Part shown: positions 1,213 through 19,624 of the stretch, in pieces
Layout: every line of letters begins with the position of its first letter
Position numbering within the stretch: position 1 is the first letter of the stretch
Assembly (NCBI GenBank): GCA_009773765.1
Contig: WTWZ01000032.1
Coordinates: 1 to 41,702 of the forward strand
DNA from: Prolixibacteraceae bacterium
Lineage (GTDB): Bacteria; Bacteroidota; Bacteroidia; Bacteroidales; Prolixibacteraceae
Length of the DNA: 41,702 bases
Direction of reading: 5' to 3'
Notes under the pieces: model-generated
Database searches by the model: none
What the model saw: the letters and a program-made list of their open reading frames with translations, nothing else
Told to the model about the DNA's origin: nothing
Program-made: the position numbers and the translations under genes

Positions 1213-1253
1213 TGGCACGAAAGAAAGCCCAATCGCCGAAAACAGAATATACA

Positions 1254-1930: not shown

Positions 1931-2855
1931 AGAATCCATACTGAAAAAAACTCATTATGGACTAAATATCTATGCTCACATCCTGCGTTGCTATTATCCG
2001 GAACAAATAGTCCTATCCATTTCGGGGAGGACTTGCGCCCCCACCCGAAATCCGTTCAACAGCGACAAGCCTACTTTATTCATTGAGGTTAAAAAAAACA
2101 TGGCCGTGCACAGGGATAGCGAAAACGCTATCCCTGCTGGGGATGTGTTCAGCTACGCTGAACTGCATTACAAACAGTCTGGTGATAAATTATTGCAAAT
2201 CCTCAATGTGGAAATGAATTTACAGATAAGCGAAAAATTCACCTTTTATGGAAAAAATCCAGAAGGTGAACTTCCTAAAAGCCCCTCCATTGAAAGGATT
2301 GGGGAGGCTTCATTCTCCTTTTTCAAAGCTCCTGTCAGCAATATTACACCGCACAGTCAAACCACCCTGGTACAGATATTCAATGCAATAAAAGGAAATT
2401 ACTACGAAGAACGGACTTCTAATTTACGTGCGTTTGCCGATGGCAAACTTGCCCGCCTTTATAAAGCACAGCATTTTGACTATTGTACATTTTCAGGTGT
2501 TTTTACCACCCGTAATGATAAGTCACTGGTAAAACATTCAGGTTTATTGTGTATTGATTTCGACCATTTAAACAGCGTTGAAACACTGTTTAAAAGTCTT
2601 TTACAAGATGATTATTTCGATACACAACTACTTTTCCGCAGTCCCTCTGGCGATGGGTTAAAGTGGATAATTCAAATAAATCCTCCATTGAGGGATTTAG
2701 GGAGCTTCTCACACGGCGAATACTTCGCCGCGGTGGCAAATTATATTCGTCAAGCCTACGGTGTTGAAGTTGATAAATCAGGCCGGGACTTGTCCCGTGC
2801 CTGCTTTTTACCTCATGACCCCAATGCTTACATTAACCCATTAATTGCAAAATAA
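1914..2855 (+). CDS. VirE N-terminal/BT4734-type primase-like protein
   Basis: A 313-aa protein of the BT4734/BF3469 type. The C-terminal half from about residue 145 has the VirE-N/primase-like pattern: NLRAFADGKLARLYKAQHFD, then CTFSGVFTTRNDKSLVKHSG, the acidic core CIDFDHL and FRSPSGDGLKW. The D-x-D of CIDFDH is at the place of the metal-binding acids in archaeo-eukaryotic primase folds. Role inferred: priming or copying the excised element together with the next gene. Five palindromic insertions interrupt the coding sequence without breaking the frame (2019-2051, 2111-2136, 2279-2310, 2681-2730, 2779-2803). They add unusual segments such as HRDSENAIPAGDV. The next start is 3 nt downstream. 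Confidence 0.8.
   Translation: METLNKESILKKTHYGLNIYAHILRCYYPEQIVLSISGRTCAPTRNPFNSDKPTLFIEVKKNMAVHRDSENAIPAGDVFSYAELHYKQSGDKLLQILNVEMNLQISEKFTFYGKNPEGELPKSPSIERIGEASFSFFKAPVSNITPHSQTTLVQIFNAIKGNYYEERTSNLRAFADGKLARLYKAQHFDYCTFSGVFTTRNDKSLVKHSGLLCIDFDHLNSVETLFKSLLQDDYFDTQLLFRSPSGDGLKWIIQINPPLRDLGSFSHGEYFAAVANYIRQAYGVEVDKSGRDLSRACFLPHDPNAYINPLIAK
2019..2051. repeat. In-frame palindromic insert 1
   Basis: Arms ATTTCGGG (2019-2026) and CCCGAAAT (2044-2051) are perfect inverted repeats around a 17-nt loop. It lies inside the VirE-N gene and encodes the ISGRTCAPTRNP segment, which looks unlike the rest of the protein. Confidence 0.6.
2111..2136. repeat. In-frame palindromic insert 2
   Basis: CAGGGATAGCG and CGCTATCCCTG are perfect 11-bp inverted repeats with an AAAA loop inside the VirE-N gene. 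A hairpin this perfect within a coding region is not expected by chance. It encodes part of HRDSENAIPAG. Confidence 0.8.
2279..2310. repeat. In-frame palindromic insert 3 (GGGGAGGCTTC family)
   Basis: Arms AAGCC and GGCTT flank an imperfect inner stem of CCTCC against GGGGA type. The core CTCCATTGA..GGATT..GGGAG..CTTC recurs at 2681-2708 and, more divergently, at 2936-2965, in the same orientation. All three lie inside genes without breaking the frame. Confidence 0.65.
2681..2730. repeat. In-frame repeat 4 plus adjoining hairpin
   Basis: The first part (2681-2708) is a second copy of the CTCCATTGA..GGGAG..CTTC repeat. It is followed directly by a perfect 7-bp hairpin, CGGCGAA (2714-2720), loop TAC, TTCGCCG (2724-2730). 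Together they encode the low-similarity segment PPLRDLGSFSHGEYFAA in the VirE-N gene. Confidence 0.65.
2779..2803. repeat. In-frame palindromic insert 5
   Basis: CAGGC-C-GGGAC, a TT loop, then GTCCC-GT-GCCTG gives two 5-bp stems separated by a small internal loop. It encodes SGRDLSRAC near the end of the VirE-N gene. Confidence 0.6.
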
Positions 2856-4687: not shown

Positions 4688-4726
4688 ACAAAATCGGCAA
4701 TAAACTATCGTTATTGCCGATTTTGT
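4688..4726. terminator. Strong hairpin terminator after the primase block
   Basis: ACAAAATCGGCAATAA (4688-4703) pairs perfectly over 16 bp with TTATTGCCGATTTTGT (4711-4726), with a 7-nt loop. A-rich and T-rich flanks allow it to act in both directions. It starts 30 nt after the DUF3987 stop and separates the primase block from the defence operon. The remaining 200 nt before the next start are AT-rich, and I see no exact TAnnTTTG box there. Confidence 0.8.
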
Positions 4727-4930: not shown

Positions 4931-7606
4931 ATGTCAACCGCTGTATCCTATCAAACCATTGAAGCAAAATTACAAACATTGCACGAAACCACTTCCGCTC
5001 AGGAGTTTGGTTACGATTTACTGCGCATATTTAATGCAATGTCCGAAACTAAAATCAATCGTATAAAAGAGGGTAAAGACAATTTACTGAAAACAGAAAA
5101 CGCTTTTTTAGCCAATAAAACCCTTGCATTTTGCTGGTGTAAGACCATTCAACTTGCCACTGAATTGGAATACCTCAAGAATAGCGCAAAAGTTACCAAA
5201 GCCGCTCCAAGGTTATTGGTGGTGTCTGATGGTGTAAACGTGTTGGCATACGACCCCAAAGAAAAAGAAAGCTATGATAACGAAATAGCAAAAATCCGTT
5301 TCGACTACCAATTTTTTATGCCCCTCGCAGGTGTCGAACGTTACCAGGCTGTTGGCGAGGAAGAAGCCGATGTTAAAGCTGCCTACAAAATGGCTCGCAT
5401 ATTCGATGAAATTCGCCGCTACAACGAAATTGATTATAAAAACAAACAGGACATTCACGCGCTGAATGTGTTTATGTCGCGCCTCCTTTTTTGTTTTTTT
5501 GCTGAAGATACCGACATTTTTAAAAATAAAATTTTCACAAATGCGATAAAAAGCTATACGCTCGAAGATGGGTCTGATGTTGGAAACTTCCTTGATGAAG
5601 CTTTTGATATAATGAGTACAAACAGCGCGTCAATACGTGCTCAAAAATCTCGGGCTATCAGTCAATTCCCTTATGTAAACGGTGGCTTGTTCTCGGTGCA
5701 TTATACAGTTCCAACGCTTGGTTGGAAAGCCCGCCGCCTGTTGCTCGAATGTGGCGACCTCAATTGGGATAAAATCAATCCCGACATTTTCGGGAGCATG
5801 ATTCAGGCTGTTATTTCGCCCGAATTGCGCAGTTCGCTCGGCTTACACTACACTTCGGTTTCGAATATAATGAAGGTGATACAACCACTTTTTCTTGACG
5901 AATTGTATGCCGAGTTTGCCAGTGCCCGAAACAACGAAAAACAACTCCACAAACTGCTCATCCGAATATCGAAAATAAAATTCTTTGACCCCGCTTGCGG
6001 TAGTGGAAATTTCTTAATCATTATCTACAAAGAACTCCGGAAACTCGAAATACAAATATGGCAGCCACTCGAAAAACTAAGCGGTGAACGTATCATCCCT
6101 TTTTCGAACATTCAGCTCACACAATTCTATGGCATCGAACTCGATGAATATGCCCAGGAAACTGCCATTCTTTCACTTTGGCTGGCCGAACACCAGATGA
6201 ATAAAGAGTTTGAAGACCGTTTCCATATTCATGTCGATGCACTTCCATTGCGTTCAAGTGGTAACATTGTAAAAGGCAACGCCTGCCGGTCAAACTGGAA
6301 TACCGTTTGTCCGCATAAGCCGGATGAAGAAGTTTATATCATGGGAAACCCGCCCTATTTGGGAGCCAGATTGCAGGATGACAATCAAAAAAGTGATTTG
6401 GAGTATGCGATGGGAAACGACATTCAGTATAACAACCTCGATTATATTGCTTGTTGGTTTTATTTGGGCGCAAACTATATCGAAAACTCTGTTGCAAAGT
6501 TTGCCTTTGTTACCACCAATTCAATTTGTCAGGGTGAACAAGTTAGTTTATTATGGCCATATCTTCTCTCGAAAGACATTGAAATCGATTTTGCCTATTC
6601 TTCATTCAAATGGGCAAATAACGCCAAATATAATGCAGCAGTAATAGTTGCCATTATTGGGTTGCGCCCAATCTCTAATCAACCAAAAAACCTGTTTACT
6701 GAAACTTCGAAGAAACAAGTAAAAAACATCAATGCTTATTTGCTGGATTCTGCAAATGTAATTGTTCATAAAAGAAATAAATCACTATGTAATTTTCATG
6801 AAATGAACTTTGGCAATATGCCTAATGATAATGGAAATTTACTTTTAGAAAAGAGTGAGAGGAATAAATTGATTGCAACCTATCAAAAGACTGAAATACT
6901 AATCAAAGGATTTTGTGGTTCTCAGGAATTTATTCGAGGTGAGGAAAAATATTGCTTATGGATTACTGAAGAAACAAAAGACTTTGCATACTCTTTTCCA
7001 ATTATAAAAAAAAGAATTGATGCTTGTGAAAAAGTACGTTATGAAAGTAAACGCGAAGCAACTAAGAAGTTATCTGAAGTTTCTTATCGTTTTGGTGAAG
7101 TTAGACACAAAGATTCTGATTCTATCATTATTCCACGTCATTCTTCTGAATCCCGTGATTATATACCCATCGGGTTCTTGGATGAAAAAACAATTATTGC
7201 CGACTCTGCTTTAGCCATTTATGATGCTCAACTCTGGCTTTTTGGAATTCTTACTTCCAAAATGCATATGGCCTGGGTAAAAACTATAGGTGGCAGGTTA
7301 AAAACCGATTATCGGTATTCTGCCACACTCTGTTATAACACCTTTCCGTTCCCCAAAATAAGCGAAGCCAAACGAGCCGAAATTGAGCAGGCCGCTGAAG
7401 ATGTTCTACTGGCACGCCAGTACCACACCGAAAAAACATTAGCCGAAATGTACGACCCCAAAAAGATGCCAGCCAACCTGCGCCAGGCACACACCTTACT
7501 CGACCGCTTGATTGAAAGTTGTTACCGGCCTGAGCCTTTCCACTCCGACGAAGAAAGATTGGAGCACCTTTTTGCATTGTACGAAAAAATGACAAAGAAA
7601 AAATAG
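4931..7606 (+). CDS. MmeI-like class I DNA methyltransferase
   Basis: An 891-aa protein with MmeI-like architecture. An N-terminal domain carries PRLLVVSDGVNVLAYD near residue 93. A helicase-spacer-like part has RLLFCFFAEDTDIF near 183 and FPYVNGGLF near 246. The methyltransferase core has motif I DPACGSGNF near 352 and motif IV NPPY near 475, and a target-recognition and C-terminal part follows. NPPY predicts N6-adenine methylation. In MmeI-type fused enzymes the N-terminal domain supplies an E-x-K nuclease site. The corresponding segment here appears to be NRIKEGKDNLL, without the Glu, so I infer that nuclease activity is lost and that this is the modification and recognition arm. It opens a nine-gene operon; RhuM follows after 19 nt. 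Confidence 0.85.
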   Translation: MSTAVSYQTIEAKLQTLHETTSAQEFGYDLLRIFNAMSETKINRIKEGKDNLLKTENAFLANKTLAFCWCKTIQLATELEYLKNSAKVTKAAPRLLVVSDGVNVLAYDPKEKESYDNEIAKIRFDYQFFMPLAGVERYQAVGEEEADVKAAYKMARIFDEIRRYNEIDYKNKQDIHALNVFMSRLLFCFFAEDTDIFKNKIFTNAIKSYTLEDGSDVGNFLDEAFDIMSTNSASIRAQKSRAISQFPYVNGGLFSVHYTVPTLGWKARRLLLECGDLNWDKINPDIFGSMIQAVISPELRSSLGLHYTSVSNIMKVIQPLFLDELYAEFASARNNEKQLHKLLIRISKIKFFDPACGSGNFLIIIYKELRKLEIQIWQPLEKLSGERIIPFSNIQLTQFYGIELDEYAQETAILSLWLAEHQMNKEFEDRFHIHVDALPLRSSGNIVKGNACRSNWNTVCPHKPDEEVYIMGNPPYLGARLQDDNQKSDLEYAMGNDIQYNNLDYIACWFYLGANYIENSVAKFAFVTTNSICQGEQVSLLWPYLLSKDIEIDFAYSSFKWANNAKYNAAVIVAIIGLRPISNQPKNLFTETSKKQVKNINAYLLDSANVIVHKRNKSLCNFHEMNFGNMPNDNGNLLLEKSERNKLIATYQKTEILIKGFCGSQEFIRGEEKYCLWITEETKDFAYSFPIIKKRIDACEKVRYESKREATKKLSEVSYRFGEVRHKDSDSIIIPRHSSESRDYIPIGFLDEKTIIADSALAIYDAQLWLFGILTSKMHMAWVKTIGGRLKTDYRYSATLCYNTFPFPKISEAKRAEIEQAAEDVLLARQYHTEKTLAEMYDPKKMPANLRQAHTLLDRLIESCYRPEPFHSDEERLEHLFALYEKMTKKK

Positions 7607-7625
7607 AACCAGTTTTTAACGCATC

Positions 7626-8621
7626 ATGGAACAAAACGAAATAGTAATTTACAAAAGCCAGGATGGAAATATAAAAGTAGATGTACTTTTTTTTGACGAT
7701 ACAGTGTGGCTTACAATCGACCAGATGACCGCACTCTTTGCAAAATCCCGGGCAACAATTAACGAGCACATTTTGAATGTTTATACCGAAAAAGAGCTTT
7801 CGGAAGATACCACGATGAGAAAAATCGGAATTTCCGATTTTTCTACCAAACCAACTAATTTTTATAATCTCGATGTCATTATATCAGTTGGTTACAGGGT
7901 GAAATCGCCTCAGGGTACGCAATTCCGCATTTGGGCTACCCAACGCCTTCGCGAATATATCATCAAAGGTTTTGTTCTCAATGACGAGCGTTTCAAATCC
8001 GGCTCCTCGATGAACTATTTTCGCGAGCTTCTCGAACGCATTCGGGAAATCCGCATCTCCGAGAAACTTTTCTATCAGCAAATCAAGGATATATATTCCA
8101 CCAGTATCGACTATAACCCGTCTGATGAAATGACATTGGCATTTTTCAAGGAAGTTCAAAACAAACTATTGTGGGCAGTGAGTGGCAAAACCGCTGCCGA
8201 ACTGATTTACTACCGGGCCAATGCTGCTTTACCTCAAATGGGACTTACCTCTACAAAAACACTTCAAAAGGTAAACAAAGGTGATATCGAAATTGGGAAA
8301 AACTATTTGAAGGAAGATGAATTAGCCGGACTAAAACTGATTGTCGAACAGTATCTGGCATACGCCGAAGCCCAGGCGCTGAATCACAAACCCATGTACA
8401 TGCACGATTGGATTGAAAAACTCGGACAAGTGCTTACCATGAACGAAAAAAATATTCTTGACCACGCCGGAAAAATTTCGCACAAATTAGCCTTGAAAAA
8501 AGCCGGTGAAGAATACAGTAAATATTTGGAATTGCAACGAAATGCCGAACATTTGGAAAGTATTAAAGAATTGGACAAGGATATAAAAGCATTGAAAGCA
8601 ACAAAGAAAAAAAAGCCATAA
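7626..8621 (+). CDS. RhuM-family protein
   Basis: A 331-aa protein of the virulence RhuM family. The N-terminal half has IVIYKSQDGNIKVDVLFFDD, then T-V-W-L-T-I-D-Q-M-T-A-L-F, a helix-turn-helix-like start, and NLDVIISVGYRVKSPQGTQF followed by RIWATQRLREYIIKGFVLND. The C-terminal half (from about 110) is helical and ends in a Lys-rich tail. RhuM proteins occur beside restriction genes and in prophages; their biochemical activity is not established. Here it is 6 nt from the helicase start, inside the operon, which suggests that it is a working part or a regulator of this system. Confidence 0.85.
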   Translation: MEQNEIVIYKSQDGNIKVDVLFFDDTVWLTIDQMTALFAKSRATINEHILNVYTEKELSEDTTMRKIGISDFSTKPTNFYNLDVIISVGYRVKSPQGTQFRIWATQRLREYIIKGFVLNDERFKSGSSMNYFRELLERIREIRISEKLFYQQIKDIYSTSIDYNPSDEMTLAFFKEVQNKLLWAVSGKTAAELIYYRANAALPQMGLTSTKTLQKVNKGDIEIGKNYLKEDELAGLKLIVEQYLAYAEAQALNHKPMYMHDWIEKLGQVLTMNEKNILDHAGKISHKLALKKAGEEYSKYLELQRNAEHLESIKELDKDIKALKATKKKKP

Positions 8622-8627
8622 CCAACA

Positions 8628-10568
8628 ATGGAAAATATTGTAAACATATCTTATGCCCAAACAGGCAAAGCCACCAATACCAACGTGCTGGGTATGCGAC
8701 CAATGCAGACGAAGGCTTATGAAGCCCGCCTCAATCAATATATTTTGCTTAAAGCGCCACCTGCATCGGGCAAAAGCCGTGCGCTCATGTTTTTAGCGTT
8801 GGATAAGTTGGAATACCAGGGCGTTAAAAAAGCGATTGTTGCTGTTCCCGAAAAAACCATTGGACGCTCTTTTGCCAATACCGATTTAATTTCTCATGGC
8901 TTTTTTGCCGATTGGCGGGTTGCAACCTATTACAACCTTTGTGATGCTGAAAACGAACAAAACAAAGTGGGGCGCTTCACCGAGTTTTTGCGCGATACCA
9001 AGGCAAGGACTTTGGTTTGCACACACGCCACTTTACGTTTTGCTGCCAAAATTTTGGCTGATATTGATTTTAACGATTGCCTGTTGGCTATCGATGAGTT
9101 TCACCACGTATCAGCCGACGCCAACAGCGGTTTGGGCGAACTGATTCACCGTCTTATGACCCAGACCAATGCTCACATTATTGCCATGACTGGTTCGTAC
9201 TTCCGGGGAGATGGTGTACCTGTACTTCGCGCTGACGATGAAGGTCGATTTTTTCCTGTGACATACAATTACTATGAACAACTAAACGGATATAAGTATC
9301 TCAAAAGTTTGGGTATTGGTTATCATTTTTATAAAGGGCCATACCTGACTGCGATTAACGAAGTGCTTGATTTAAATAAAAAAACCATTGTACATATTCC
9401 TTCGGTAAACTCAAGAGCTTCAACCGGCGATAAATACGATGAGGTACAGAAAATTTTAACTTCAATCGGCGAAGTGGTTCACACCAATTATGAAACGCGC
9501 ATTTATACAGTAAAAACCGCTAAAGGTAAACTACTCAAAATTGGCGATTTGGTTGAAGATAATCCTCGCGAAAGATTACAATTACAGGCATTTCTGCAAC
9601 GCATGAACGGCAAGGATGCTGTTGATATAATTATTGCACTGGGCACAGCCAAAGAAGGATTCGACTGGCAATGGTGTGAACACTGCCTGACGATTGGTGT
9701 GCGCGGCAGTTTAACCGAAGTGGTGCAAATCATTGGCCGGTGTACCCGCGATTGTGAAGGCAAGGAACATGCTCAGTTTACCAATTTGATTGCAAGTCCT
9801 GATGCTGCCCAGGAAAATGTGGAAGTAGCTGTAAACGATATGCTGAAGGCTATTACTGTATCGTTACTGATGGAACAGGTAATGGCTCCATCATGGAAAT
9901 TTAAAACAAAACGTGACGAAGAGGATAATGGTGATGATGACAGGCCGATGGTATTTGTTGAAGGATTAAAACCCCTTTCGTCTGAACGCACAAGAAACAT
10001 TGTTGAAGGCGATTTAAACGACCTGAAAGCCACAATTCTGCAGGATGATATGATTGCCCGTTCTATGGGTGGCGGGATTGCTCCCGAAGTGATTAACAAT
10101 GTACTGATTCCAAAAATTATTCAGGAGAAATATCCTGACTTAACTCCTGACGAAGTGGAGGAAGTACGTCAGCGGGTAGTTCTTGATTCTGTTACAAAGG
10201 ATGCCAGAATAGAACAAAATGCTGGAAATACATTTATGGTAATAGGAAAGAGGTTCATCAATATCGACACCCTGTCAATAAACTTGATTGACAGCATCAA
10301 TCCATTCCAGCGAGGGTATGAGATTTTATCAAAATCAGTAACTGCCCCGGTGCTTAAAGTCATTCAGAATGTGATTGAAGAAAATAAAATCGACATGTCG
10401 CTCGAAGAAGCAATTACATTGTTCAAAAAATACATTCCTCAATATCGGCAGGAACACAATGGTTCGTTGCCCGAACTTTCCGATTCAAACCCTTTTAATC
10501 GCCGGTTAGCTCAGGCTATTGTGACTATTCGCAGAGAGAAACAAAAACACATGGACAAAAATCGCTGA
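8628..10568 (+). CDS. SF2 DEAD/DEAH-type helicase
   Basis: A 646-aa protein with both RecA-like lobes. Walker A is APPASGKS (43-50), motif II is DEFHH (156-160), motif III-like AMTGSYFRGD lies near 186, motif V is GTAKEGFDW (339-347) and motif VI is QIIGRCTRD (367-375). The last 270 residues are helical and unassigned. Helicases of this kind translocate on DNA in restriction-like systems. The position between a methyltransferase and a GIY-YIG nuclease, with 2 nt to the latter, suggests a motor subunit of a multi-gene restriction system. DNA rather than RNA as substrate is an inference from this context. Confidence 0.9.
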   Translation: MENIVNISYAQTGKATNTNVLGMRPMQTKAYEARLNQYILLKAPPASGKSRALMFLALDKLEYQGVKKAIVAVPEKTIGRSFANTDLISHGFFADWRVATYYNLCDAENEQNKVGRFTEFLRDTKARTLVCTHATLRFAAKILADIDFNDCLLAIDEFHHVSADANSGLGELIHRLMTQTNAHIIAMTGSYFRGDGVPVLRADDEGRFFPVTYNYYEQLNGYKYLKSLGIGYHFYKGPYLTAINEVLDLNKKTIVHIPSVNSRASTGDKYDEVQKILTSIGEVVHTNYETRIYTVKTAKGKLLKIGDLVEDNPRERLQLQAFLQRMNGKDAVDIIIALGTAKEGFDWQWCEHCLTIGVRGSLTEVVQIIGRCTRDCEGKEHAQFTNLIASPDAAQENVEVAVNDMLKAITVSLLMEQVMAPSWKFKTKRDEEDNGDDDRPMVFVEGLKPLSSERTRNIVEGDLNDLKATILQDDMIARSMGGGIAPEVINNVLIPKIIQEKYPDLTPDEVEEVRQRVVLDSVTKDARIEQNAGNTFMVIGKRFINIDTLSINLIDSINPFQRGYEILSKSVTAPVLKVIQNVIEENKIDMSLEEAITLFKKYIPQYRQEHNGSLPELSDSNPFNRRLAQAIVTIRREKQKHMDKNR

Positions 10569-10570
10569 TT

Positions 10571-12046
10571 ATGGATGTGGAAAAAGAATTGCTGGACATT
10601 TTCAACGACCCGATTTTTTCTGATGTAAAACCCTCAGAAATCAAACCTACTTCCGACGACAGGTTAGTACAGTCATTCGAAGAGATAAACGCCTTTTTTG
10701 AGAAAAATAATCGGGTGCCATCTGTGTCAAATGGTATTAAAGAAAAGCTGCTTTGGGCTGCATTACAAGGCATACTTACAAACGAAGAAAAGCTGAAGCA
10801 TTTACTTCCATACGACAGGTTTGAACTTTTGCGCCCCAAAGACCCAGTAAATATTGCCGAACTGGAAGATGTATTTAATAGTCCTTTGCTTGAAATGTCC
10901 TCTGATGCATTGTCAATTCTTGATGTACCGGAACATTTAAGAAAAAATCTTCAGATTGATACTTCTGACTACATTGCCCAACGCAAAAAATGTGAAGACT
11001 TTTATTTATATCAGGAGGGTTTTGTGCAAGTAAATCAGGAACTAAAATCCGGCAAACGCAGTTTCGTTAGGTTTTCTTCCAACCAGCTTGAAAAAGCGGG
11101 TAGTTATTTTCTGCTGGATGGCATGTTGGTTTATTTAGCCGAAGTTCTGGACCTAAGTCGCAGCATGAAGGGCCATTTTACAGGTCGTTGTATCTGTATT
11201 TTCGACAATGGAACAATGTCGGATTTAAAGTTGGACACATTACGCCGTGCCCTTTACGAAAATGGTTACGCTATTCGCGAAAACAACGAAGCTGTCAGTC
11301 AATACCTCAACCACCAGTTTAAAGTAGAAGAAAAAGACCAATTATCAGGTTATATTTATGTATTGAAATCGCTTTCTACCAATCCGGCAATCAGCTCAAT
11401 CGAAAATCTGTTCAAAATAGGATTTTCTACAACTCCGGTTCAGGAACGCATTGCCAATGCAGAAAATGAGCCAACGTATTTAAATGCCAAAGTTCAAATT
11501 GTTGCAACATGGCAGGCTTATAACTTAACGGTTGCCAAATTTGAAACATTGTTACACAAACTTTTTTATAGCGTACAGTTACAGGTAAAAGTTGGCAACC
11601 AAACCCCTCTGGAATGGTTTGTTGTTCCGTATAGTATAATTGAAAAAGCTATCAGTCGTATTATTAAAGAAATTCCAATTAGTTACGACCCTGTTAATCA
11701 GGCAATAATTGAGCATACCGCAGTAGAGAATAACGAAAAGGAATCAATTGATACCACCGGATGGAAAATCCTGACATTAAATATTAAGGAAATCTATTTT
11801 AAGGAAATTGTAGCTGGCACAAAAAAAGAAGAATATAGAAAATTAAAACCCTCAACAATAAATAAATACACATTTATTGAAGAAGGTAAAAGATGGTTGA
11901 AAAAGTATGATGCCATTCGCTTTTATGTAGGTTACCACAAGGACCGCGAGAGTGCATTGGTCGAAGTTACCGATGCTACTTATAGTTATGCTGAACAAAC
12001 TGTTATTTATTATTTAGGCAAAATATTTGAGGTAATTTCAAAATAG
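10571..12046 (+). CDS. GIY-YIG nuclease with C-terminal ASCH-like domain
   Basis: A 491-aa protein. Residues 1-250 have no clear family. Residues about 260-350 form a GIY-YIG domain of the T5orf172 type: GYIYVLKS (260-267) supplies the first strand, LFKIGFS (280-286) the second, with Arg293 and Glu325 as candidate catalytic residues. Residues about 398-491 look like an ASCH fold: LTLNIKEIYFKEIVAGTKKE, then EYRKLKP and IRFYVGYHKD; ASCH domains bind nucleic acid or modified nucleotides. Inference: this is the DNA-cutting subunit, and the ASCH-like part may sense base modification or an RNA. A 78-nt gap to the Argonaute gene is the largest in the operon. Confidence 0.8.
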   Translation: MDVEKELLDIFNDPIFSDVKPSEIKPTSDDRLVQSFEEINAFFEKNNRVPSVSNGIKEKLLWAALQGILTNEEKLKHLLPYDRFELLRPKDPVNIAELEDVFNSPLLEMSSDALSILDVPEHLRKNLQIDTSDYIAQRKKCEDFYLYQEGFVQVNQELKSGKRSFVRFSSNQLEKAGSYFLLDGMLVYLAEVLDLSRSMKGHFTGRCICIFDNGTMSDLKLDTLRRALYENGYAIRENNEAVSQYLNHQFKVEEKDQLSGYIYVLKSLSTNPAISSIENLFKIGFSTTPVQERIANAENEPTYLNAKVQIVATWQAYNLTVAKFETLLHKLFYSVQLQVKVGNQTPLEWFVVPYSIIEKAISRIIKEIPISYDPVNQAIIEHTAVENNEKESIDTTGWKILTLNIKEIYFKEIVAGTKKEEYRKLKPSTINKYTFIEEGKRWLKKYDAIRFYVGYHKDRESALVEVTDATYSYAEQTVIYYLGKIFEVISK

Positions 12047-12124
12047 ATGGATTTGAAATCCAGTTGCTTACGATAAAAAAATGAAAAAATATATGTAAAA
12101 ACTAACCTTTAATCTGTAATTCAA

Positions 12125-14314
12125 ATGCGTAATGAATCCCTTTTTCTCAATACCCTTGCTTTTGAGTTTCCATCCGAAACAAAGACTTTTTATTTCACAC
12201 TTACCGACAGGGAAGATGTGTTGTTGACCAAGTTAAGTCATCAGCTCTTCCCGAATAACATACGGAAAATCTTTCCCGAACTAAGCAATGGTGAAAATCT
12301 TTACACCTCATTCACTCGTAAATTGGAGGGGCTTACATCGCTCGAAATTAATTTTGCAACCGAAAACTTTGCCTTGGTCAAACGTTACTTCAACCGCGAA
12401 ATAAAACACTATTTCACAACAAGGGATATTCTCGTAGAGCCAACATTCATTAAGGATAATCAGGTCTGGTTACGCAATACGACCGAAAAACCACCCGCCA
12501 ACTGTGCAATCTATGACAGATTTACAGTTAAGGTCAATTTTAATCAATTCACAAACACACCCGAATTGGTTCTTTCTTATGACCGAAAAGCAAAGGTGTA
12601 TTCAAATTCTGTCAATGCATTTTTAGCCGCAAACGAGGGTGCCACCGCCGAACTTTTTAACAGGGTGGTTCATGTGCAATATTTTCAAAAAGGAGACAGG
12701 AAAATCACCAAAAGAAGTGTGACAAAGTATGATTTCCTTAAGGAAAAGGAGGATGTTGATTACAATAACGTCTATCCGATTATTGGTCATAAGCTGGCCG
12801 CTTATCTTGGTTTTAATGATGAGGAAGAAGAACCGGCAAATCAGCTTCAAAGTAAAAACCGATATACCAAATACCACAATAAAATCAATGGTTTTTATAA
12901 TAAGTTCATCAATAATACTGACTTTCGGAAACTAATTCAAATTTCAAATAACGGTTTCGACAAGGCGCGGCCTTTGCAAATTGGAAAAACTTCAGCTAAA
13001 AGCAATCAGCTGGTTTTTGGGAAAACATCTGATGGCAAAAATGCCATCGATGTAAAACCTCAACGGGGAGTAAATAACGGACCATTCAGTCAGCCTAGGC
13101 GTAAAAACAATATTCAGATGTTTTTTATTGTCCCCGAAGGTTACAAAAAGCTGACAAACGACCTGTCAACATACCTGATTAAAAATTATAAAAATCTGTT
13201 CAAAGGATTGATACATTACACGGCAGTCCCAATCACCCTTGCATCAAAAACATTCAATATCCCATTCACCGATTACGCCAATCCATTGGCTGAAATTGAA
13301 AAAGCCCTTGAAAATAATAACTGGGTTGAAGGAGTGAAATACCTTGCAATTTATCTTACACCCATTGGTAAACATGCCATAGACAAGGAACAACGTAAAA
13401 TTTACTATAAAGTCAAAGAAAAACTGCTGAACCTCGATATAACTTCACAATGTATCGAAACCGATAAAATGCTGAAAGTTATTGAAGAGGACAAAAAAGT
13501 GGATGAATATGGAAGAAGCAAAAGCAACTTTGCCTATACCCTGCAAAATATGGCAATTGCCATAAATGCCAAGTTAGGAGGTATTCCCTGGCGCATCAAC
13601 GTCCCCGACCATAAAGAATTGGTAGTAGGTGTGGGAGCATTCCGTCATGAAGACACAAAAATTCAGTATCTCGGCTCAGCCTTTTCGTTCGATAATACAG
13701 GAGCGTTCAACTCTTTCGATTATTTTCACCACGACCAGACTGCGGAACTTGCTGGCTCTATTGAAGAAGCCGTAATCCGTTATGCCAATGTAAACGACAA
13801 ACCCGGACGCCTAATAATTCATTTTTACAAAGAAATGAGCGAGGAAGAAATTAAACCCATTGAAAACGCCCTGCATAATTTAGGGCTCGACATACCTGTT
13901 TTTGTCGTTACCATCAATAAAACCGAATCAGAAGATTTTGTCATTTTCGATACAGGTTGGAAAGAACTAATGCCTTACAGCGGCAGGTACATCAATCTGG
14001 GTAACAAAACGTACCTGCTTTGCAACAATACCCGTTACGACGACGATAGTCACAGACCTACAGATGGATTTCCCTTTCCTGTTAAACTAAAAATCGATTG
14101 TCCCTCGGACAATACACTCCAAATCGATACAAAAACAATTGAGGAACTGATTGACCAGGTATATCAGTTCTCCCGGATTTATTGGAAATCCGTCAAACAA
14201 CAAAACTTGCCGGTTACAATAAAATATCCCGAAATGGTAGCGCAAATTGCACCCCATTTCAACGCTGGCAACATTCCACCCAACATCGGAAATGACAACC
14301 TTTGGTTTCTATAA
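12125..14314 (+). CDS. Prokaryotic Argonaute, full length, probably catalytically inactive
   Basis: A 729-aa protein. MID features are Y427-x3-K431, Q442 in ITSQCI and K483 in AINAKLGGIPWRI, which together form the Y-K-Q-K pocket for a guide 5' phosphate. The PIWI fold continues with ELVVGVGAF (498-506), GRLIIHFYKEMSEEEIKPIE (561-580) and the conserved C-terminal N-L-W-F-L. Active pAgos have Asp in the first strand (usually G-x-D) and in H-R-D-G; here these places read G504 and Y568, so I infer no slicing. The N-terminal 330 residues fit N, L1, a PAZ-like region and L2, so this is a long pAgo. Inactive long pAgos are known to work with separate effector proteins. It is followed after 15 nt by the methyltransferase-like gene. 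Confidence 0.9.
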   Translation: MRNESLFLNTLAFEFPSETKTFYFTLTDREDVLLTKLSHQLFPNNIRKIFPELSNGENLYTSFTRKLEGLTSLEINFATENFALVKRYFNREIKHYFTTRDILVEPTFIKDNQVWLRNTTEKPPANCAIYDRFTVKVNFNQFTNTPELVLSYDRKAKVYSNSVNAFLAANEGATAELFNRVVHVQYFQKGDRKITKRSVTKYDFLKEKEDVDYNNVYPIIGHKLAAYLGFNDEEEEPANQLQSKNRYTKYHNKINGFYNKFINNTDFRKLIQISNNGFDKARPLQIGKTSAKSNQLVFGKTSDGKNAIDVKPQRGVNNGPFSQPRRKNNIQMFFIVPEGYKKLTNDLSTYLIKNYKNLFKGLIHYTAVPITLASKTFNIPFTDYANPLAEIEKALENNNWVEGVKYLAIYLTPIGKHAIDKEQRKIYYKVKEKLLNLDITSQCIETDKMLKVIEEDKKVDEYGRSKSNFAYTLQNMAIAINAKLGGIPWRINVPDHKELVVGVGAFRHEDTKIQYLGSAFSFDNTGAFNSFDYFHHDQTAELAGSIEEAVIRYANVNDKPGRLIIHFYKEMSEEEIKPIENALHNLGLDIPVFVVTINKTESEDFVIFDTGWKELMPYSGRYINLGNKTYLLCNNTRYDDDSHRPTDGFPFPVKLKIDCPSDNTLQIDTKTIEELIDQVYQFSRIYWKSVKQQNLPVTIKYPEMVAQIAPHFNAGNIPPNIGNDNLWFL

Positions 14315-14329
14315 AAAAAATGAAATTGC

Positions 14330-15334
14330 ATGAGCTCTGTAGAAATAGAACATAGTATAATACTTCCAGCCTGGTTAGATTCCTTTATTTATGATGAACT
14401 TGGTGCAAATTATGCACCTGATTATGTCCGATATGAGTACAATTTAGATTTATCCAAAGAAGAAGTTAAGACATATTTAGGCACATATTTCCCAAGAAGT
14501 TATGCCGAGTCCTTTTGCATATTCGACAATTTATATTGTAATGCGAAATATTATTCCGTAATGCAGGAAAAATCAGAGATATCAATCCTTGATTTCGGAT
14601 GCGGTACTGGCGGTGAAATTATAGGGTTACTTACAGTTTTAAACAAACATTTACCCGATTTAAAGAAAGTCACAATTTTAGCCATTGACGGTAATCACGA
14701 TGCTTTAAGATATTCGAATAAAATTGTTGAACAATTCAAATTACAGTGTCCATATAAAATAGAATACAATGTTGGCCCAATTGCTATTAGTGATTGTAGC
14801 GATGTAGAAATAATGGACGAGATTGTAAAAAGCTCATTTGATTATATTTTATCATTTAAGGCAATTTGTGAATTAATTTCGAAACAGCGTATTACAGGTA
14901 ATGCATATCAGTATGTTGCTGAAATATTAGCCCCGAAACTTACTGAAACCGGTTTAATAACTCTTTTAGATGTTACTGTAAAAAACGATATGATTGGTAC
15001 TTATTATCCAATTTATATGAATCAAGGGTTACGACATTTTTTAATTGACGCCGAAACATTTAAAACCCTAATTCCACTCCCATGCCATAAATTTGAAGAT
15101 TCATGTACGCAACTATGCTTTACTCAAAGAATCTTTAAAATAACGCACAGCCGCAAAATCAATGATATTAGCAAAGTTTCATATCGGATAATGGGTAAAC
15201 AGGATTTTATCCAAAAAATAATACCTGAATTTACAGATGGTAAATTTATTATCCGAAAGAAGAATGGAGTTAATACATACTGTCCTTATTCTGCAGGTAT
15301 TAAAGAAATAAACTCATTTGATATAAATATTTAA
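14330..15334 (+). CDS. SAM-dependent methyltransferase-like protein
   Basis: A 334-aa protein with a Rossmann methyltransferase core. Motif I is LDFGCGTGG (87-95), the acidic end of strand 2 is AIDGN with D120, and DYILSFKAICEL (171-182) fits the motif IV/V region. An 80-residue helical N-terminal part precedes it. There is no NPPY or PC motif of the kind found in DNA methylases. The layout recalls Rsm22-like and other RNA or protein methyltransferases, but I cannot name a substrate. It lies between the Argonaute (15 nt) and the UvrD-like helicase (11 nt). It may process or mark guide or target RNA, or it may be a toxic effector. Both ideas are inference. Confidence 0.75.
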   Translation: MSSVEIEHSIILPAWLDSFIYDELGANYAPDYVRYEYNLDLSKEEVKTYLGTYFPRSYAESFCIFDNLYCNAKYYSVMQEKSEISILDFGCGTGGEIIGLLTVLNKHLPDLKKVTILAIDGNHDALRYSNKIVEQFKLQCPYKIEYNVGPIAISDCSDVEIMDEIVKSSFDYILSFKAICELISKQRITGNAYQYVAEILAPKLTETGLITLLDVTVKNDMIGTYYPIYMNQGLRHFLIDAETFKTLIPLPCHKFEDSCTQLCFTQRIFKITHSRKINDISKVSYRIMGKQDFIQKIIPEFTDGKFIIRKKNGVNTYCPYSAGIKEINSFDINI

Positions 15335-15345
15335 ATTTAAAATAT

Positions 15346-16377
15346 ATGGAAGACGAATTTTATATTGATTATGCCAAATTAGATGATTTTCAGCGACAAT
15401 TAGTTGATAAACGGACAGATAAACCAATGGTTGTTACTGGTAAAGCCGGAAGTGGTAAATCTGTTATTGCGTTGCATAAAGCCAAACAAGTTTCTACCTT
15501 GGGTTCATATGCCATTGTTGTTTTTACAAAAACTTTAAGGAAATATTTTAATGATGGCCTTGAGAAATTAAAACTCCAAAATGTATATCATTATCATGGT
15601 TGGCCAAAACAACAAGTAGATTATTTGATTGTTGACGAATGCCAGGATTTTAGCCCGGAACAAATTGAAGAAATGAATAATTGTGGTAAAATTTGTTTCT
15701 TCTTTGGTGATTCGGAACAATCTATAATGAGTTTTCGTGGCCCGGTGCAAAAAGTCGAAGAAACAGCTTTCAAATATAATATCAAGTTATATGAACTGTA
15801 TTTTAATTACCGATTAACAATCGAAAATGCATTATTAGCTGAAAAAGTAGGTAATGTTGAAGAAGTTGTAGAAAAATGCAAAAGAAATGGTGAAAAACCT
15901 CAGTTAATTAATAAAAATTCTATTGATGCCCAGTTGGATGAAATTATTCGGATTATTAAAAATAAATCGTTAACAAACGTTGGTATCTTAATGCGATTTA
16001 ATTCAAAATCACAAGCTAAGTCTCGAACAGGAAATGAAAAACTTTCTGTTGAGTACGTTCATGAATATTTTTCAAAAAAAGGTGTTACAAATGAATTTAA
16101 ATACAATGCAAATCAGGCAACAGCAATGGACTTGGATTTTCATTCTTCAAACCCAAAAATAATGACTTGGTGGTGTGCCAAAGGATTACAATTTAAAGAC
16201 GTATTTATTCCTTGTAGTGAAGCGAACCATGAAGAAGAAAAACGTGCCGCTGTATATGTGGCAATGACAAGAACTGGTGAACGTTTATATATTAGTTATA
16301 CAGGCCAATTATCAAGTTTCTTTCCGGAACCAACTAATGGTTTATATGCGAGTACTGATGAAATTGAAATGATTTAG
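15346..16377 (+). CDS. Compact UvrD-like SF1 helicase
   Basis: A 343-aa protein with a complete SF1 motor: Walker A GKAGSGKS (32-39), motif II DECQD (97-101), motif III GDSEQSI (121-127), motif IV NYRL (154-157), motif V WWCAKGLQFKDVF (275-287) and motif VI VAMTRTGERLY (305-315). UvrD and PcrA are around 700 aa, so the 1B and 2B accessory subdomains are mostly missing. This leaves a minimal motor similar to the short UvrD-like ATPases of several defence systems. It would need a partner to bind DNA well. The next gene starts 2 nt after its stop and is the likely partner. Confidence 0.9.
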   Translation: MEDEFYIDYAKLDDFQRQLVDKRTDKPMVVTGKAGSGKSVIALHKAKQVSTLGSYAIVVFTKTLRKYFNDGLEKLKLQNVYHYHGWPKQQVDYLIVDECQDFSPEQIEEMNNCGKICFFFGDSEQSIMSFRGPVQKVEETAFKYNIKLYELYFNYRLTIENALLAEKVGNVEEVVEKCKRNGEKPQLINKNSIDAQLDEIIRIIKNKSLTNVGILMRFNSKSQAKSRTGNEKLSVEYVHEYFSKKGVTNEFKYNANQATAMDLDFHSSNPKIMTWWCAKGLQFKDVFIPCSEANHEEEKRAAVYVAMTRTGERLYISYTGQLSSFFPEPTNGLYASTDEIEMI

Positions 16378-16379
16378 TT

Positions 16380-18587
16380 ATGAAATATTATATAATTACT
16401 TCTAGCTTGAATGTAGATAACATACTTTCATCTGAAAGTATATCCCCAATTTCCTTTTATGGCAAAAGGGATTTTGGTTACAAAACTTTTCAAAAAATTG
16501 ACAAACTCAATATAGCCAATAACATTGTTTTGTTTTCTGAAATACCTTATTTCGAGATTCATGATTCGGAAAGAGAGAATTATCCAATGGTCATTGAGAT
16601 TACCGATGATGTTCAACTGAAGGATAAATTACATTATACTGAACAATCACATTCTGTTTGCCAAATCTTTCTTTACAATCAGTCAATTCGTTTAACCCCA
16701 TGGAATTGCAAAATATTATTCTTTTCTCAACAAGCTCTTGTTCTCTCAAAGCTGAAATGTTCTGACAGCCTATGTAACAAGTTGAGTGAATTTTACAGGT
16801 TCGAATTAGTAAAACCTAACAAATCAATTTTATTAAAAGATGTGTTAAAAGATTCTGCTATAAATGAGCCTGGTTTTAACATTGATTTATTGGTTTTAGA
16901 AAACAAGTTAAATAGGCTTAAAGGTTTTCTGTATGGATACAACTTAGGCTTTACGAAATCATTATCCGATGATGTTGCTAAGTTATTAGGGCTGCAAAAG
17001 AGAATTTATAATATTGTTGCTTCAATAATAAATAACAAGGGTGTAAGTAATGAACACTTTAATGAGGAATTAAAAAAACTTGATTATTTATACAATGAAA
17101 TTGACCCGCATAAAAAGCTATCGCGCAATTTATGGAATGAAAAAATATTATCCAGATTTACTTCTTCAGCCGACAAAAATACTTTTGAAACAATTCTCAG
17201 GGAACTTTTCGTTGAAAGTGAAGCAAAATTGAATTTCTGTAAAAATAATAACCTTATTGTCCGGAAACTTTCGTATTCAACACCACAAAAATACTTTGAC
17301 TGGTCTGCTTATCAAAGCGAGTTGTCTGTTTATACTCAGAGCATTATATATGAGGATAAAGCACAAAGAACAAACATTGATTTATCAACGGAATTTACAC
17401 TTCCTGCTGATTATTCTACAATAAGATTAAATGATGAAAATGCAAAATTATATAATGAAATACTTTCTGGATATTTTTTCAAGGATAGTGTAATTACCAT
17501 TGAAGATTTACGGTTAAATAGACTTGAAATAGCAACAGAGATTACAAAAGGTTTAAAAGCTCTTATGCAATCAGCTAATAAAGATTGGGAAAATAGCCAG
17601 GAACGATTATTCTTTAATTCTTTGCGCCAAAACATAGCTAATTCAGAGCCATTCGATTTACAAAAAGCACCTGATATTATAAATTTATCAATTGCTGCTT
17701 TTTTATTGAAGGGAGAAGATTTTGAAGCATTAACTCGCTATTTAGAAGAAAATGGTGTTTCTGATTATAAATACGTTTTGGGATTTTGGGGAGCAGCGTG
17801 TGGGTACGTTGATATGCCCAAACCAAATCTCAATCCAATTATTAAGCAAAAAGAAAGCTTTTGTCAGGTTTATAAATCCGTGGATAATTTATTGTTTAAG
17901 AGTTCCATAGAAGGTCCATTTCCCGAAACTTCTAATGTGTTCATTAATAAAAGTAATACTGAGGTTCCATTAATAAAGGAGAATAATAAATCAGTGCAAC
18001 CAGAGAATAAATTCAATGAAATATTTTCGGCTGTTCAGAAAAAATTAGGTAAGAAAATAAATGAAAAGCAAAAAATTGCTGTTGAGAAATCTCTTAATTC
18101 GGCAAGCACACCTGATAAAATTCTTTATTACTTAAAAAAGAATGATATTAAATCAACTACCAAAATTTATAAAGAGTTTGAAGCCTATCTTTCTCCGTCA
18201 GTTGCAAAAAACGTTGAAATTGAAAGGGAATTATTTTCCGATTCTTCCTTTCTGGCAGCAGTTCATCAATCTGATTTGTCCTTTTTAATGGATGTAAATC
18301 GTATCAATAATATCAGTCAATTAATTGTTGGTGATAAAAACTTAAAACAATTTAAAACAGATTTGGAATGGTTTGTTGAAAATCATAGGGAATCATATTT
18401 GGATAGTAAAAAAGGGTTTCAATCTGGTTTTTATTATGGCAAGTCAACGGATAATAAGTCCGTTATAGAACGATTTGAGATATATCTTAATAATAAGAGA
18501 GAAAACAAACAAAAGTGGCTTTCAGATATTTATCTACAAATTCCGGTAGAGAAAATTATTGCTCGTTTAAAAAACGTTTATAAATGA
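16380..18587 (+). CDS. Unknown 735-aa protein, partner of the UvrD-like helicase
   Basis: I do not recognise this family. The N-terminal 150 residues look like a separate alpha/beta domain (MKYYIITSSLNVDNILSSES, then FYGKRDFGY, IVLFSEIPYFEI and PMVIEI). The spacing of Y-I-I-T with N-I-L-S weakly recalls ADP-ribosyltransferase-like folds such as DarT, but no catalytic set can be fixed. The remainder is long, helical, Lys- and Asn-rich, with a flexible linker near residues 540-560. There is no transmembrane segment, P-loop or nuclease motif. It lies 2 nt after the UvrD-like gene and overlaps the DUF1848 gene by 4 nt (ATGA), so it is a core part of the operon. It is the best candidate for a new effector or adaptor. 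Confidence 0.8.
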   Translation: MKYYIITSSLNVDNILSSESISPISFYGKRDFGYKTFQKIDKLNIANNIVLFSEIPYFEIHDSERENYPMVIEITDDVQLKDKLHYTEQSHSVCQIFLYNQSIRLTPWNCKILFFSQQALVLSKLKCSDSLCNKLSEFYRFELVKPNKSILLKDVLKDSAINEPGFNIDLLVLENKLNRLKGFLYGYNLGFTKSLSDDVAKLLGLQKRIYNIVASIINNKGVSNEHFNEELKKLDYLYNEIDPHKKLSRNLWNEKILSRFTSSADKNTFETILRELFVESEAKLNFCKNNNLIVRKLSYSTPQKYFDWSAYQSELSVYTQSIIYEDKAQRTNIDLSTEFTLPADYSTIRLNDENAKLYNEILSGYFFKDSVITIEDLRLNRLEIATEITKGLKALMQSANKDWENSQERLFFNSLRQNIANSEPFDLQKAPDIINLSIAAFLLKGEDFEALTRYLEENGVSDYKYVLGFWGAACGYVDMPKPNLNPIIKQKESFCQVYKSVDNLLFKSSIEGPFPETSNVFINKSNTEVPLIKENNKSVQPENKFNEIFSAVQKKLGKKINEKQKIAVEKSLNSASTPDKILYYLKKNDIKSTTKIYKEFEAYLSPSVAKNVEIERELFSDSSFLAAVHQSDLSFLMDVNRINNISQLIVGDKNLKQFKTDLEWFVENHRESYLDSKKGFQSGFYYGKSTDNKSVIERFEIYLNNKRENKQKWLSDIYLQIPVEKIIARLKNVYK

Positions 18588-19624
18588 CAGATAAAATCCA
18601 ATTAACAACGGATGGTGGGCAAACAGTTGAGGCAATTGCCCCAATTATTATTTCGGCAAGTCGCTCAACAGATATTCCTGCATTTTATGCAAAGTGGTTT
18701 ATCAACCGCCTAAAAAAGGGATATGTTGTTTGGTATAACCCTTTTAACCAACAGCCAATGTATGTATCATTTAAAAGAACCAGGGTTGTTGTTTTTTGGA
18801 CAAAAAATCCGGCACCTTTAATTCCATTTTTGAATGAATTGGATAAAAAAGGCATTCACTATTATTTTCAGGTTACCCTTAATGATTATGAACAGGAAAA
18901 ATTCGAACCGAATGTTCCACCTTTAAAACAAAGGATAGATTCATTTAAAAATTTATCGGCGCAGATTGGGAAAGAAAAAGTTATTTGGCGTTTTGACCCC
19001 TTGATTTTAACTAAGGATACAAACCCAAGAACTCTTTTGACACGCATCTGGCATATTGGCAATGAATTAAAGGGTTTTACAGATAAACTGGTATTTAGTT
19101 TTGTTGATGTGAAAGCATATCGGAAAGTTCAGAACAACCTCGTTAAAGAAACGGATTCCTTTTCGAGAGAAGATGTTGAAATAGCAGAACCTAATGAAGA
19201 GCAAGTAAACGAATTAATTGAAGGGTTGGTTAAAATACGTGATGCATGGGCAAAAGATGGCTGGAATCTTGAAATGGCTACTTGTGCAGAAGAAATTGAT
19301 TTGGACAAATATAAAATAGAGCATAATCGCTGCATCGATGGCGAATTAATGAAACGTATTTTCTCCTCTGATAATGAATTAGTTTACTACTTAAATTATG
19401 GCAAATTACCAGAAAACACTTTATTTGCCCATGAATCCAACTTAAATCCCGTCAATATGAAAGACAAAGGGCAACGTAAAATTTGTGGATGTATGGTTAG
19501 TAAAGATATTGGGATGTATAACACATGTCATCATTTATGTGTGTACTGCTATGCAAACACCTCAAGAAAGGTTGTTGAAAATAATAGAGCATTGCACAGC
19601 GAAAATTCAGAGAGCTTAATTTGA
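18584..19624 (+). CDS. DUF1848 protein with cysteine cluster
   Basis: A 346-aa protein of the DUF1848 family: IIISASRSTDIPAFYAKWF near residue 22, VVWYNPFN, VVFWTKNP and VIWRFDPLIL. The C-terminal end has C301-x-C303 and C315-x3-C319-x2-C322 (YNTCHHLCVYCYAN). The C-x3-C-x2-C spacing is that of radical-SAM iron-sulphur sites, although here it lies at the C-terminal end. The family's activity is not known to me. It is the last gene of the operon, coupled by an ATGA overlap to the 735-aa gene, and a weak hairpin follows. In this setting a role in nucleic-acid repair or modification is plausible but unproven. Confidence 0.85.
   Translation: MTDKIQLTTDGGQTVEAIAPIIISASRSTDIPAFYAKWFINRLKKGYVVWYNPFNQQPMYVSFKRTRVVVFWTKNPAPLIPFLNELDKKGIHYYFQVTLNDYEQEKFEPNVPPLKQRIDSFKNLSAQIGKEKVIWRFDPLILTKDTNPRTLLTRIWHIGNELKGFTDKLVFSFVDVKAYRKVQNNLVKETDSFSREDVEIAEPNEEQVNELIEGLVKIRDAWAKDGWNLEMATCAEEIDLDKYKIEHNRCIDGELMKRIFSSDNELVYYLNYGKLPENTLFAHESNLNPVNMKDKGQRKICGCMVSKDIGMYNTCHHLCVYCYANTSRKVVENNRALHSENSESLI

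Follow-up and report, generated by a model that had tools for sequence, protein, structure and literature searches.

Several described systems resemble parts of the locus analysed here, a run of nine genes around an Argonaute in an integrative element of a Prolixibacteraceae bacterium (GCA_009773765.1). The stretch analysed (hereafter the window) is the entire contig WTWZ01000032.1 of 41,702 bases, from a genome in 118 contigs. Statements on published systems refer to excerpts of the papers cited. In Bacillus subtilis an MmeI-like methylase, an SF2 helicase and a T5orf172/GIY-YIG protein form the DnmA-YeeB-YeeC cluster, which had no effect on three phages in that host, and deletion of a cluster of this type altered phage sensitivity in Vibrio crassostreae (PMC9973331). 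RhuM is known from the vicinity of restriction-modification genes and has been proposed to be a toxin (PMC3710099). Among prokaryotic Argonautes (pAgos), the long-B systems BPAN, BPAS and BPAM have effectors encoded downstream, and a minority of long-B pAgos, a clade published in 2023, accompanies the VirE-N protein og_54, usually two to eight genes upstream, with functions to be found (PMC10620215). For Thermus, the primase-polymerase of a mobile element was proposed as the guide maker of its Argonaute ThAgo, since DNA uptake is increased in both mutants and the circular form of ICETh2 is affected in both, rising fourfold without the Argonaute, twofold without the primase-polymerase and about tenfold without both; the authors remark that the distributions of the two genes do not coincide completely (PMC7693054). 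BT4734-like proteins have been counted among the archaeo-eukaryotic primases, and a helicase function in the replication of mobile elements was predicted for DUF3987 (PMC5862659).

The original prediction presented the nine genes of the window as one candidate defence operon inside an integrative element. Nine open reading frames (ORFs) were indeed found on the plus strand in the order given, separated by 19, 6, 2, 78, 15, 11, 2 and -4 nucleotides (nt), their family names held in Pfam and PADLOC scans, and homology to other loci supported the placement of defence-type genes in an integrative element. A single nine-gene system was not supported: in the loci examined the modules occur with other partners, an outcome that the original prediction itself had named as refuting, and the base composition breaks after the Argonaute. 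We consider it probable that the run consists of modules that move separately and are stacked in the element, a reading that draws on the differing genomic contexts of the modules, the dead PIWI domain and kept guide pocket of the Argonaute, and the linkage of the latter to a primase. In our assessment the defence modules of the region make up an ordinary patchwork, and what is unusual is the dead Argonaute next to them, which is part of the mobile element itself. The nine genes and the two genes directly upstream are listed below (loci and genomes elsewhere are denoted by L and G numbers).

1914..2855, + strand: BT4734-like primase of the archaeo-eukaryotic primase family (Pfam PF08800), upstream of gene 1
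2859..4658, + strand: PriCT_2-DUF3987 protein, predicted replicative helicase (Pfam), Argonaute-linked
4931..7606, + strand: gene 1, DnmA/MmeI-like methylase with specificity domain (Pfam MmeI domains), no nuclease motif recognised
7626..8621, + strand: gene 2, RhuM, accessory inserted into the three-gene unit (Pfam, E 9e-100; PADLOC PDC-S05)
8628..10568, + strand: gene 3, YeeB-like SF2 helicase (Pfam DEAD/ResIII)
10571..12046, + strand: gene 4, YeeC-like GIY-YIG nuclease extended at its C-terminus by an extra tail (Pfam T5orf172/MUG113)
12125..14314, + strand: gene 5, catalytically dead long-B-type Argonaute, gene of the element (Pfam Piwi, E 6e-17)
14330..15334, + strand: gene 6, methyltransferase-like (weak Pfam match, the best class I methyltransferase model scoring just below its cut-off), paired with DUF1848 in L137
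15346..16377, + strand: gene 7, compact SF1 helicase (Pfam Viral_helicase1/UvrD_C), paired with u735 in L021 and L022
16380..18587, + strand: gene 8, 735-amino-acid protein u735 of no known family, N-terminal region conserved in alignment
18584..19624, + strand: gene 9, DUF1848 (Pfam, E 4e-95), with a CxxxCxxC motif near the C-terminus read from the translation

The Argonaute family and the primase-helicase pair

The Argonaute of the window was aligned with those of loci L023 onward and some distant pAgos (95 full-length proteins), and two sites of the catalytic tetrad were scored at what we take to be the canonical motif positions. The first catalytic Asp site was occupied by G (92 proteins) or N (3), and the second (columns 568-569), mostly Y-K, held no Asp in 95/95, which bears out the dead Argonaute of the original prediction. 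The MID residues for the guide 5'-phosphate were kept, with Y427 and K431 in 95/95 and Q442 and K483 in 94/95. Since Asp is missing at both sites and the MID residues are retained, cutting is, judging from these residues, lost across the family, and guide binding appears to be kept. The MID pocket is of the YK type characteristic of long-B pAgos (PMC6299218). PDLC02385 pAgo was the best PADLOC model, and NCBIfam AgoRhdb matched partially (E 8e-15, far under its cut-off).

The Argonaute was present in 15 of 345 genomes of the phylum; plasmid searches returned seven partial records at 23-26% identity and viral contigs one locus. Genomic context was read for 80 of 363 relatives, up to 10 kb being covered per side and many loci being truncated by contig ends; the most similar proteins among these 80 were those of L039 (72% identity) and L040 (71%). 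From the record titles we take all except L041 and L117 to be Bacteroidota lineages.

In 47 of these 80 loci the primase lay upstream of the Argonaute on the same strand and in 2 it lay downstream; in the other 31 it was out of view. Searches with the primase as query yielded 17 distinct matches (two in 118 genomes at E 1e-80, five in 60 and 11 in 60 at E 1e-60, one overlapping). Every primase at E 1e-140 or better was followed by an Argonaute (12/12; the window, L023 and L024 had been known before, and the nine new loci L173-L181 all conformed, the Argonaute of L181 being split into two ORFs), as was the PriCT_2-DUF3987 protein at the same limit (12/12, window included). Primases at E 1e-60 to 1e-78 had an Argonaute downstream in 0/5. 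D215, D217 and D287 of the primase were present in all 45 aligned sequences including that of the window, and we read them as its metal-binding motifs I and III. We conclude that the Argonaute is a gene of a Bacteroidota integrative element and usually lies downstream of a BT4734-like primase and a DUF3987 helicase.

Some observations weigh against this conclusion. Ten of the 80 loci (L068, L069, L071, L072, L081, L086, L090, L101, L105, L116) follow a second layout with a DUF6617-like gene directly after the Argonaute, and in L101 and L105 the primase lies downstream of it. For three of the five distant primases the readable downstream sequence was limited to 3.0, 7.3 and 8.4 kb, and the two most deeply searched families had been chosen because each held an Argonaute-bearing genome.

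We take VirE_N to be an older name of PF08800; the PF08800 gene of the window (1914-2855) is the sixth gene upstream of the Argonaute, within the range of two to eight genes of og_54-linked pAgos. A dead long pAgo with a VirE-N-type gene upstream is what the window shares with that clade, which has no known function according to the excerpts (PMC10620215). The integrative element, the primase-side linkage and the exchangeable restriction cargo described below go beyond that account, and no report of them was found in the open-access literature (supplementary files not covered).

Downstream of the Argonaute, the next same-strand gene was unshared in 31 of the 80 loci, the largest shared family (cluster c13) accounted for 12, and no dedicated effector family was constant across them. 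Long-B pAgos of the BPAN, BPAS and BPAM systems are likewise dead (PMC10620215), but unlike there no single family follows the window-type Argonaute, the commonest reaching 12/80. The original prediction had tentatively placed the Argonaute in one module with genes 6-9, which would make it a long-B pAgo with its effectors downstream, as in those three systems. The 15-nt gap after the Argonaute fits such a module, but relatives of genes 6-9 were matched in 0/80 Argonaute loci, the closest ones L039 and L040 included, and a composition step lies at the border between the Argonaute and gene 6. We find this module barely credible.

A different role would be that of a replication or maintenance gene, limiting the copy number of the element or excluding its relatives, with no part in defence. 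Its position beside primase and helicase, the agreement of its distances with both (see below) and the increase of circular ICETh2 upon loss of the Thermus Argonaute or primase-polymerase (PMC7693054) fit this role, against which stands the abortive-infection immunity reported for the long-B pAgo system BPAN (PMC10620215); we regard it as a tentative and somewhat unlikely explanation.

Restriction cargo and inheritance of the Argonaute

The genes upstream of the Argonaute were classified in 86 loci (the window, L023-L027 and the 80 loci above). Labels were assigned by rule from gene clusters, those of the window, L107 and L023-L027 being set by hand from Pfam or tblastn; McrBC-like is our label for an AAA_5 gene with an unassigned gene, and DISARM-like for a helicase with an MZB gene. 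Type I genes were found in 22 loci, type III in 13, McrBC-like in 5 and the DnmA type in 2 (window and L107); a further 7 held other genes, 10 held nothing or a small regulator-sized gene, 22 were unresolved and 5 had no upstream sequence. The gap between primase and Argonaute is a cargo slot, filled by four restriction kinds or by none.

Trees were inferred quickly, without bootstrap and with long-branch warnings, from all 86 rows and from the 59 rows left after dropping the unresolved loci and those without upstream sequence. Restriction-kind labels on the 59-Argonaute tree required 30 changes versus a mean of 32.9 after shuffling, with a value as low in 24 of 200 shuffles. Specialisation of the Argonaute for one restriction type was rejected; the restriction kinds were near-random on this tree.

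Pairwise distances of the Argonaute agreed with those of DUF3987 (Spearman 0.53, n=52, p 0.001), BT4734 (0.56, n=45, p 0.001), the integrase (0.67, n=16, p 0.002) and DUF6617 (0.70, n=9). No agreement was detectable with HsdR (0.08, n=12, p 0.33), the type III Mod protein (0.02, n=11, p 0.41) or RhuM (0.28, n=9, p 0.14). The HsdR set comprised 12 loci by a coverage rule, from a cluster that holds 20. After removal of near-copies the coefficients were 0.46 for DUF3987, 0.49 for BT4734, 0.61 for the integrase, -0.10 for HsdR, -0.04 for Mod, 0.28 for RhuM and 0.88 for the RND transporters considered below. In the eight loci with both Mod and DUF3987 the Argonaute still tracked DUF3987 (0.55, p 0.03); the HsdR equivalent of this check had three loci only (0.5, p 0.51). 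The Argonaute is inherited with the primase-helicase pair of the element and not detectably with its restriction neighbours.

Several results count against this separation. Restriction-type genes stood upstream in the same run in 42 of the 59 resolved loci (raw count). Eight labels on the 86-row tree required 43 changes versus 53.4 after shuffling, with none of 200 shuffles as low, so that some clustering of labels remains. Sample sizes for HsdR and Mod, 12 and 11 loci, are small. The distances of the RND cargo agreed with those of the Argonaute (0.85, n=8), and those of DUF3987 and DUF6617, both of the backbone, disagreed (-0.02, n=9); agreement of distances is for these reasons no proof of function.

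The same 42 of 59 loci (22, 13, 5 and 2 of the four kinds) would be expected if the Argonaute were a general accessory of restriction of any type, which would use restriction fragments as guides and block the remaining invader DNA. The short spacing to the same-strand upstream neighbour (median 18 nt in 67 loci, at most 80 nt in 54) and the listing of HsdS and a type III nuclease as neighbours of pAgos (PMC6299218) are in line with this; RND transporters are listed there as well. The slot held no restriction genes in 10 and other genes in 7 of the 59 loci, co-inheritance with HsdR or Mod was not detectable and the restriction kinds were scattered nearly at random on the 59-Argonaute tree, all of which makes a general restriction accessory unlikely in our view.

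For an Argonaute that belongs to the element, the biochemical actions that we infer, here as for every other module, would be the following. The protein would bind a 5'-phosphorylated guide without being able to cut, and would most likely repress or mark DNA matching the guide, whether this belongs to a competing element, a plasmid, a phage or the replicating form of the element itself. By analogy with Thermus, the primase might copy short stretches of single-stranded DNA, invading or replicating, the copies would guide the dead Argonaute to silence matching replicons, and the plug-in restriction module in the slot between the two genes would cut; we hold this linked system to be quite unlikely. 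A mobile-element primase with a helicase is common to both cases, but ThAgo cuts and is located on megaplasmids (PMC7693054), whereas here the primase and a dead Argonaute are linked in one element. If true, the proposal would describe a mobile guided-interference system in which guide maker and guide binder are co-inherited and the nuclease is exchangeable. The source of the guides of prokaryotic Argonautes is an open question, for which the primase and the Argonaute provide a defined pair.

Other genes were seen in the vicinity of the Argonaute. RND efflux genes formed a second cargo in 21 of the 80 loci (cluster c7; e.g., L057:14040-17864). Of the near relatives by sequence, L040 carried DISARM-like helicase and MZB genes upstream and a putAbiC gene second downstream, and L041 carried type I genes and RhuM upstream.

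The DnmA-type unit and the AT-rich cassette

Judging by their families, genes 1, 3 and 4 are the published DnmA-YeeB-YeeC cluster, with which they share an MmeI-like methylase, an SF2 helicase, a T5orf172/GIY-YIG protein and the gene order; the nuclease motif is described as absent from the published methylase and was likewise not recognised in the window (PMC9973331). The window differs from that cluster by the RhuM gene inserted after the methylase and by a tail of about 107 residues on the GIY-YIG protein. The original claim that no described system has this set may thus hold for the nine genes together, but not for their first part.

By eye, no conserved acidic-ExK pattern was present in residues 60-120 of 14 aligned methylases, and the phmmer alignment of gene 1 to MmeI (5hr4) started at chain residue 105; we take the MmeI active site to lie near residues 70-82. 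A match of the MmeI N-terminal domain model to residues 10-163 of gene 1 (E 2e-15) and the best PADLOC model, a type IIG nuclease-methylase, speak against loss of the nuclease motif. The helicase and the GIY-YIG protein were aligned for the window and up to 16 further loci; L129 and L144, whose units are interrupted or partial, were excluded. K49, S50 and D156-E157-F158-H159 of the helicase, and G260, Y263, K282-I283-G284, R293 and E325 of the GIY-YIG protein, were conserved in at least 90% of the 17 aligned sequences. The C-terminal tail occurred among these in the window and L131 only; we would guess at an ASCH-like domain.

A search of 296 genomes of the phylum recovered the helicase in seven, window included, and in the six other regions a GIY-YIG gene lay downstream (6/6) and a methylase was present in five (partial in L136, none in L131). 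Plasmid records matched the helicase 263 times and the GIY-YIG protein 225 times. Among these, 11 regions were read, from Pseudomonas, Acinetobacter, Arthrobacter, Rhodococcus, Escherichia, Ligilactobacillus, Nitrosococcus, Acetobacter, Synechococcus, Proteus and Staphylococcus. All 11 held helicase and GIY-YIG genes, 9 a methylase (partial in L144) and none an Argonaute. Taken together, genes 3 and 4 occurred jointly in 17/17 regions found via either gene (11 plasmid, 6 Bacteroidota), and an Argonaute was matched in 0/17. One Acinetobacter plasmid (L129:6429-10884) had the helicase-GIY unit split over several ORFs beside a copy of ISAba1, with an OXA-23 gene nearby.

RhuM adjoins restriction genes here as in the published neighbourhoods but, unlike the cases described there, lies inside a DnmA-type unit (PMC3710099). 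It was not matched in L107 or in L128-L145, and stood directly upstream of the Argonaute in seven other loci. Between the methylase and helicase matches of L132-L135 there were 0.8 to 1.9 kb without a RhuM match, which indicates that other insertions occur at this position; the methylase-helicase junction is a recurrent insertion point. The Synechococcus locus L143 carried a toxin-antitoxin pair between these two genes.

Composition separates genes 1-5 from genes 6-9. The G+C content at third codon positions (GC3) was 0.391, 0.428, 0.403, 0.343 and 0.405 for the former and 0.236, 0.215, 0.246 and 0.300 for the latter, so that the step from 0.34-0.43 to 0.22-0.30 falls directly after the Argonaute; the two ORFs after gene 9, up to 21015, were equally low (0.261 and 0.257). 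Among the 80 Argonaute loci, genes 1, 3 and 4 were matched in one (L107), RhuM in eight and genes 6-9 in none. The module border predicted at the 78-nt gap looks real in that it splits the restriction genes from the Argonaute, but the Argonaute is not joined to genes 6-9, and a second border is its downstream side.

The protein u735 was found in 3 of 345 genomes including that of the window, and a profile search of 246 genomes in the order of G316 returned G316 alone. Both other copies (L021, L022) sit 15 and 5 nt after a gene 7-like SF1 gene, and within 20 kb around them no relative of genes 5, 6 or 9 was matched. The Walker A and DExQD residues of gene 7 were invariant in the three copies. 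u735 had no match in Pfam, PADLOC, NCBIfam, PHROGs or PDB at the limits used, searches of viral contigs and plasmids led nowhere, and a single-sequence fold prediction gave no usable fold (mean predicted local distance difference test score, pLDDT, 34.8). The gene 6 family occurred in 2 of 296 genomes, window included, and in L137 a DUF1848 gene with 52% identity to gene 9 begins 9 nt after the gene 6 relative. G606 gave a weak, partial match to gene 6 (E 3e-7), and searches for gene 6 in plasmids and viral contigs led nowhere; gene 7 gave six weak plasmid records. The CxxxCxxC motif of DUF1848 is presumably of the radical-SAM-like kind, and no paper coupling DUF1848 with defence was found in the open-access literature. 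As each pair is seen elsewhere without the other, the window may be described as an SF1-u735 pair nested in a methyltransferase-DUF1848 pair; it speaks against this that the former rests on three loci and the latter on two, window included. In L021 (7791-10859) the SF1-u735 pair is flanked by PglX-like and PglZ genes within a BREX-type operon, a position that accessory genes often occupy. The pair, seen once there and here inside the methyltransferase-DUF1848 pair, is a small new defence candidate.

One integrated system, in which modification, recognition, motors and nuclease of all nine genes act together, would account for the common strand, the gaps of at most 78 nt, the lack of plus-strand terminator-like sites between the genes (pattern scan) and the match of most parts to defence-type models. 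Terminator-like sites are a weak signal in this region (14 versus 12.9 in shuffles). Set against such a system are the composition step inside the run, the other partners of its modules and the failure to find a second example in 80 Argonaute, 17 helicase-GIY, two other u735 and one other methyltransferase-DUF1848 loci; we judge it very improbable. The layout is compatible with a single transcript, and because the nine genes are packed in this way, joint expression and some joint function are possible, which tells against a stack of separate modules. Under the stack of modules that we prefer, the methylase would mark host sites, the SF2 helicase would move on unmarked DNA, the GIY-YIG protein would cut and RhuM would be a toxin-type accessory, while genes 6-9 would form a separate AT-rich cassette, probably of accessory anti-phage genes. 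At least four units would then stand end to end without visible seams, a warning against reading compact defence runs as single systems.

Backbone genes, borders and insertion site of the element

The following further features were assigned to the element.

76..1095, + strand: DUF6617-like backbone gene (cluster c3, 34 loci), adjoining the integrase in relatives
1197..1930, + strand: two small HTH_17 backbone genes (Pfam; clusters c5 and c10)
4688..4726, + strand: terminator-like hairpin with a 16-pair stem, separating primase unit and cargo, upstream of gene 1 (pattern match only)
22977..23621, + strand: DUF6266 gene near the right end of the element (Pfam; cluster c6, 23 loci)

The DUF6617 assignment comes from a Pfam match of the L057 member, the window's own copy being without a Pfam hit. 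DUF3987 searches of viral contigs led nowhere, as did BT4734 and DUF3987 searches of PDB. Because the window is one complete contig, the left end of the element with its integrase would lie outside it. Host-type genes start at 24046. The same succession, a DUF6266 gene and then relatives of the window's three genes at 24046-27998, occurs in L045; provided that L045 occupies the same insertion site, the right border of the element falls between 23621 and 24046.

The left neighbour of the integrase was mnmE in 10 of 14 relatives with room on that side, with only a small ORF separating the two in L089; this was not the case in L050, L063 and L070. The 3' end of mnmE was not matched in the window with up to 3 mismatches and was matched once with 4, at 23853. 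On another contig of the window's own genome (L156, contig C101) mnmE is followed by a related integrase (49-53% identical), and no Argonaute was matched in the 19.5 kb read. In L063 (18758-22035) right-end genes (c21, DUF6266) are followed directly by a helix-turn-helix gene and an integrase of the kind found at the start of the element, which suggests tandem integration. In the host part of the contig, at 30084-30760, a HEPN gene overlaps a nucleotidyltransferase gene in the layout of a HEPN-MNT toxin-antitoxin pair.

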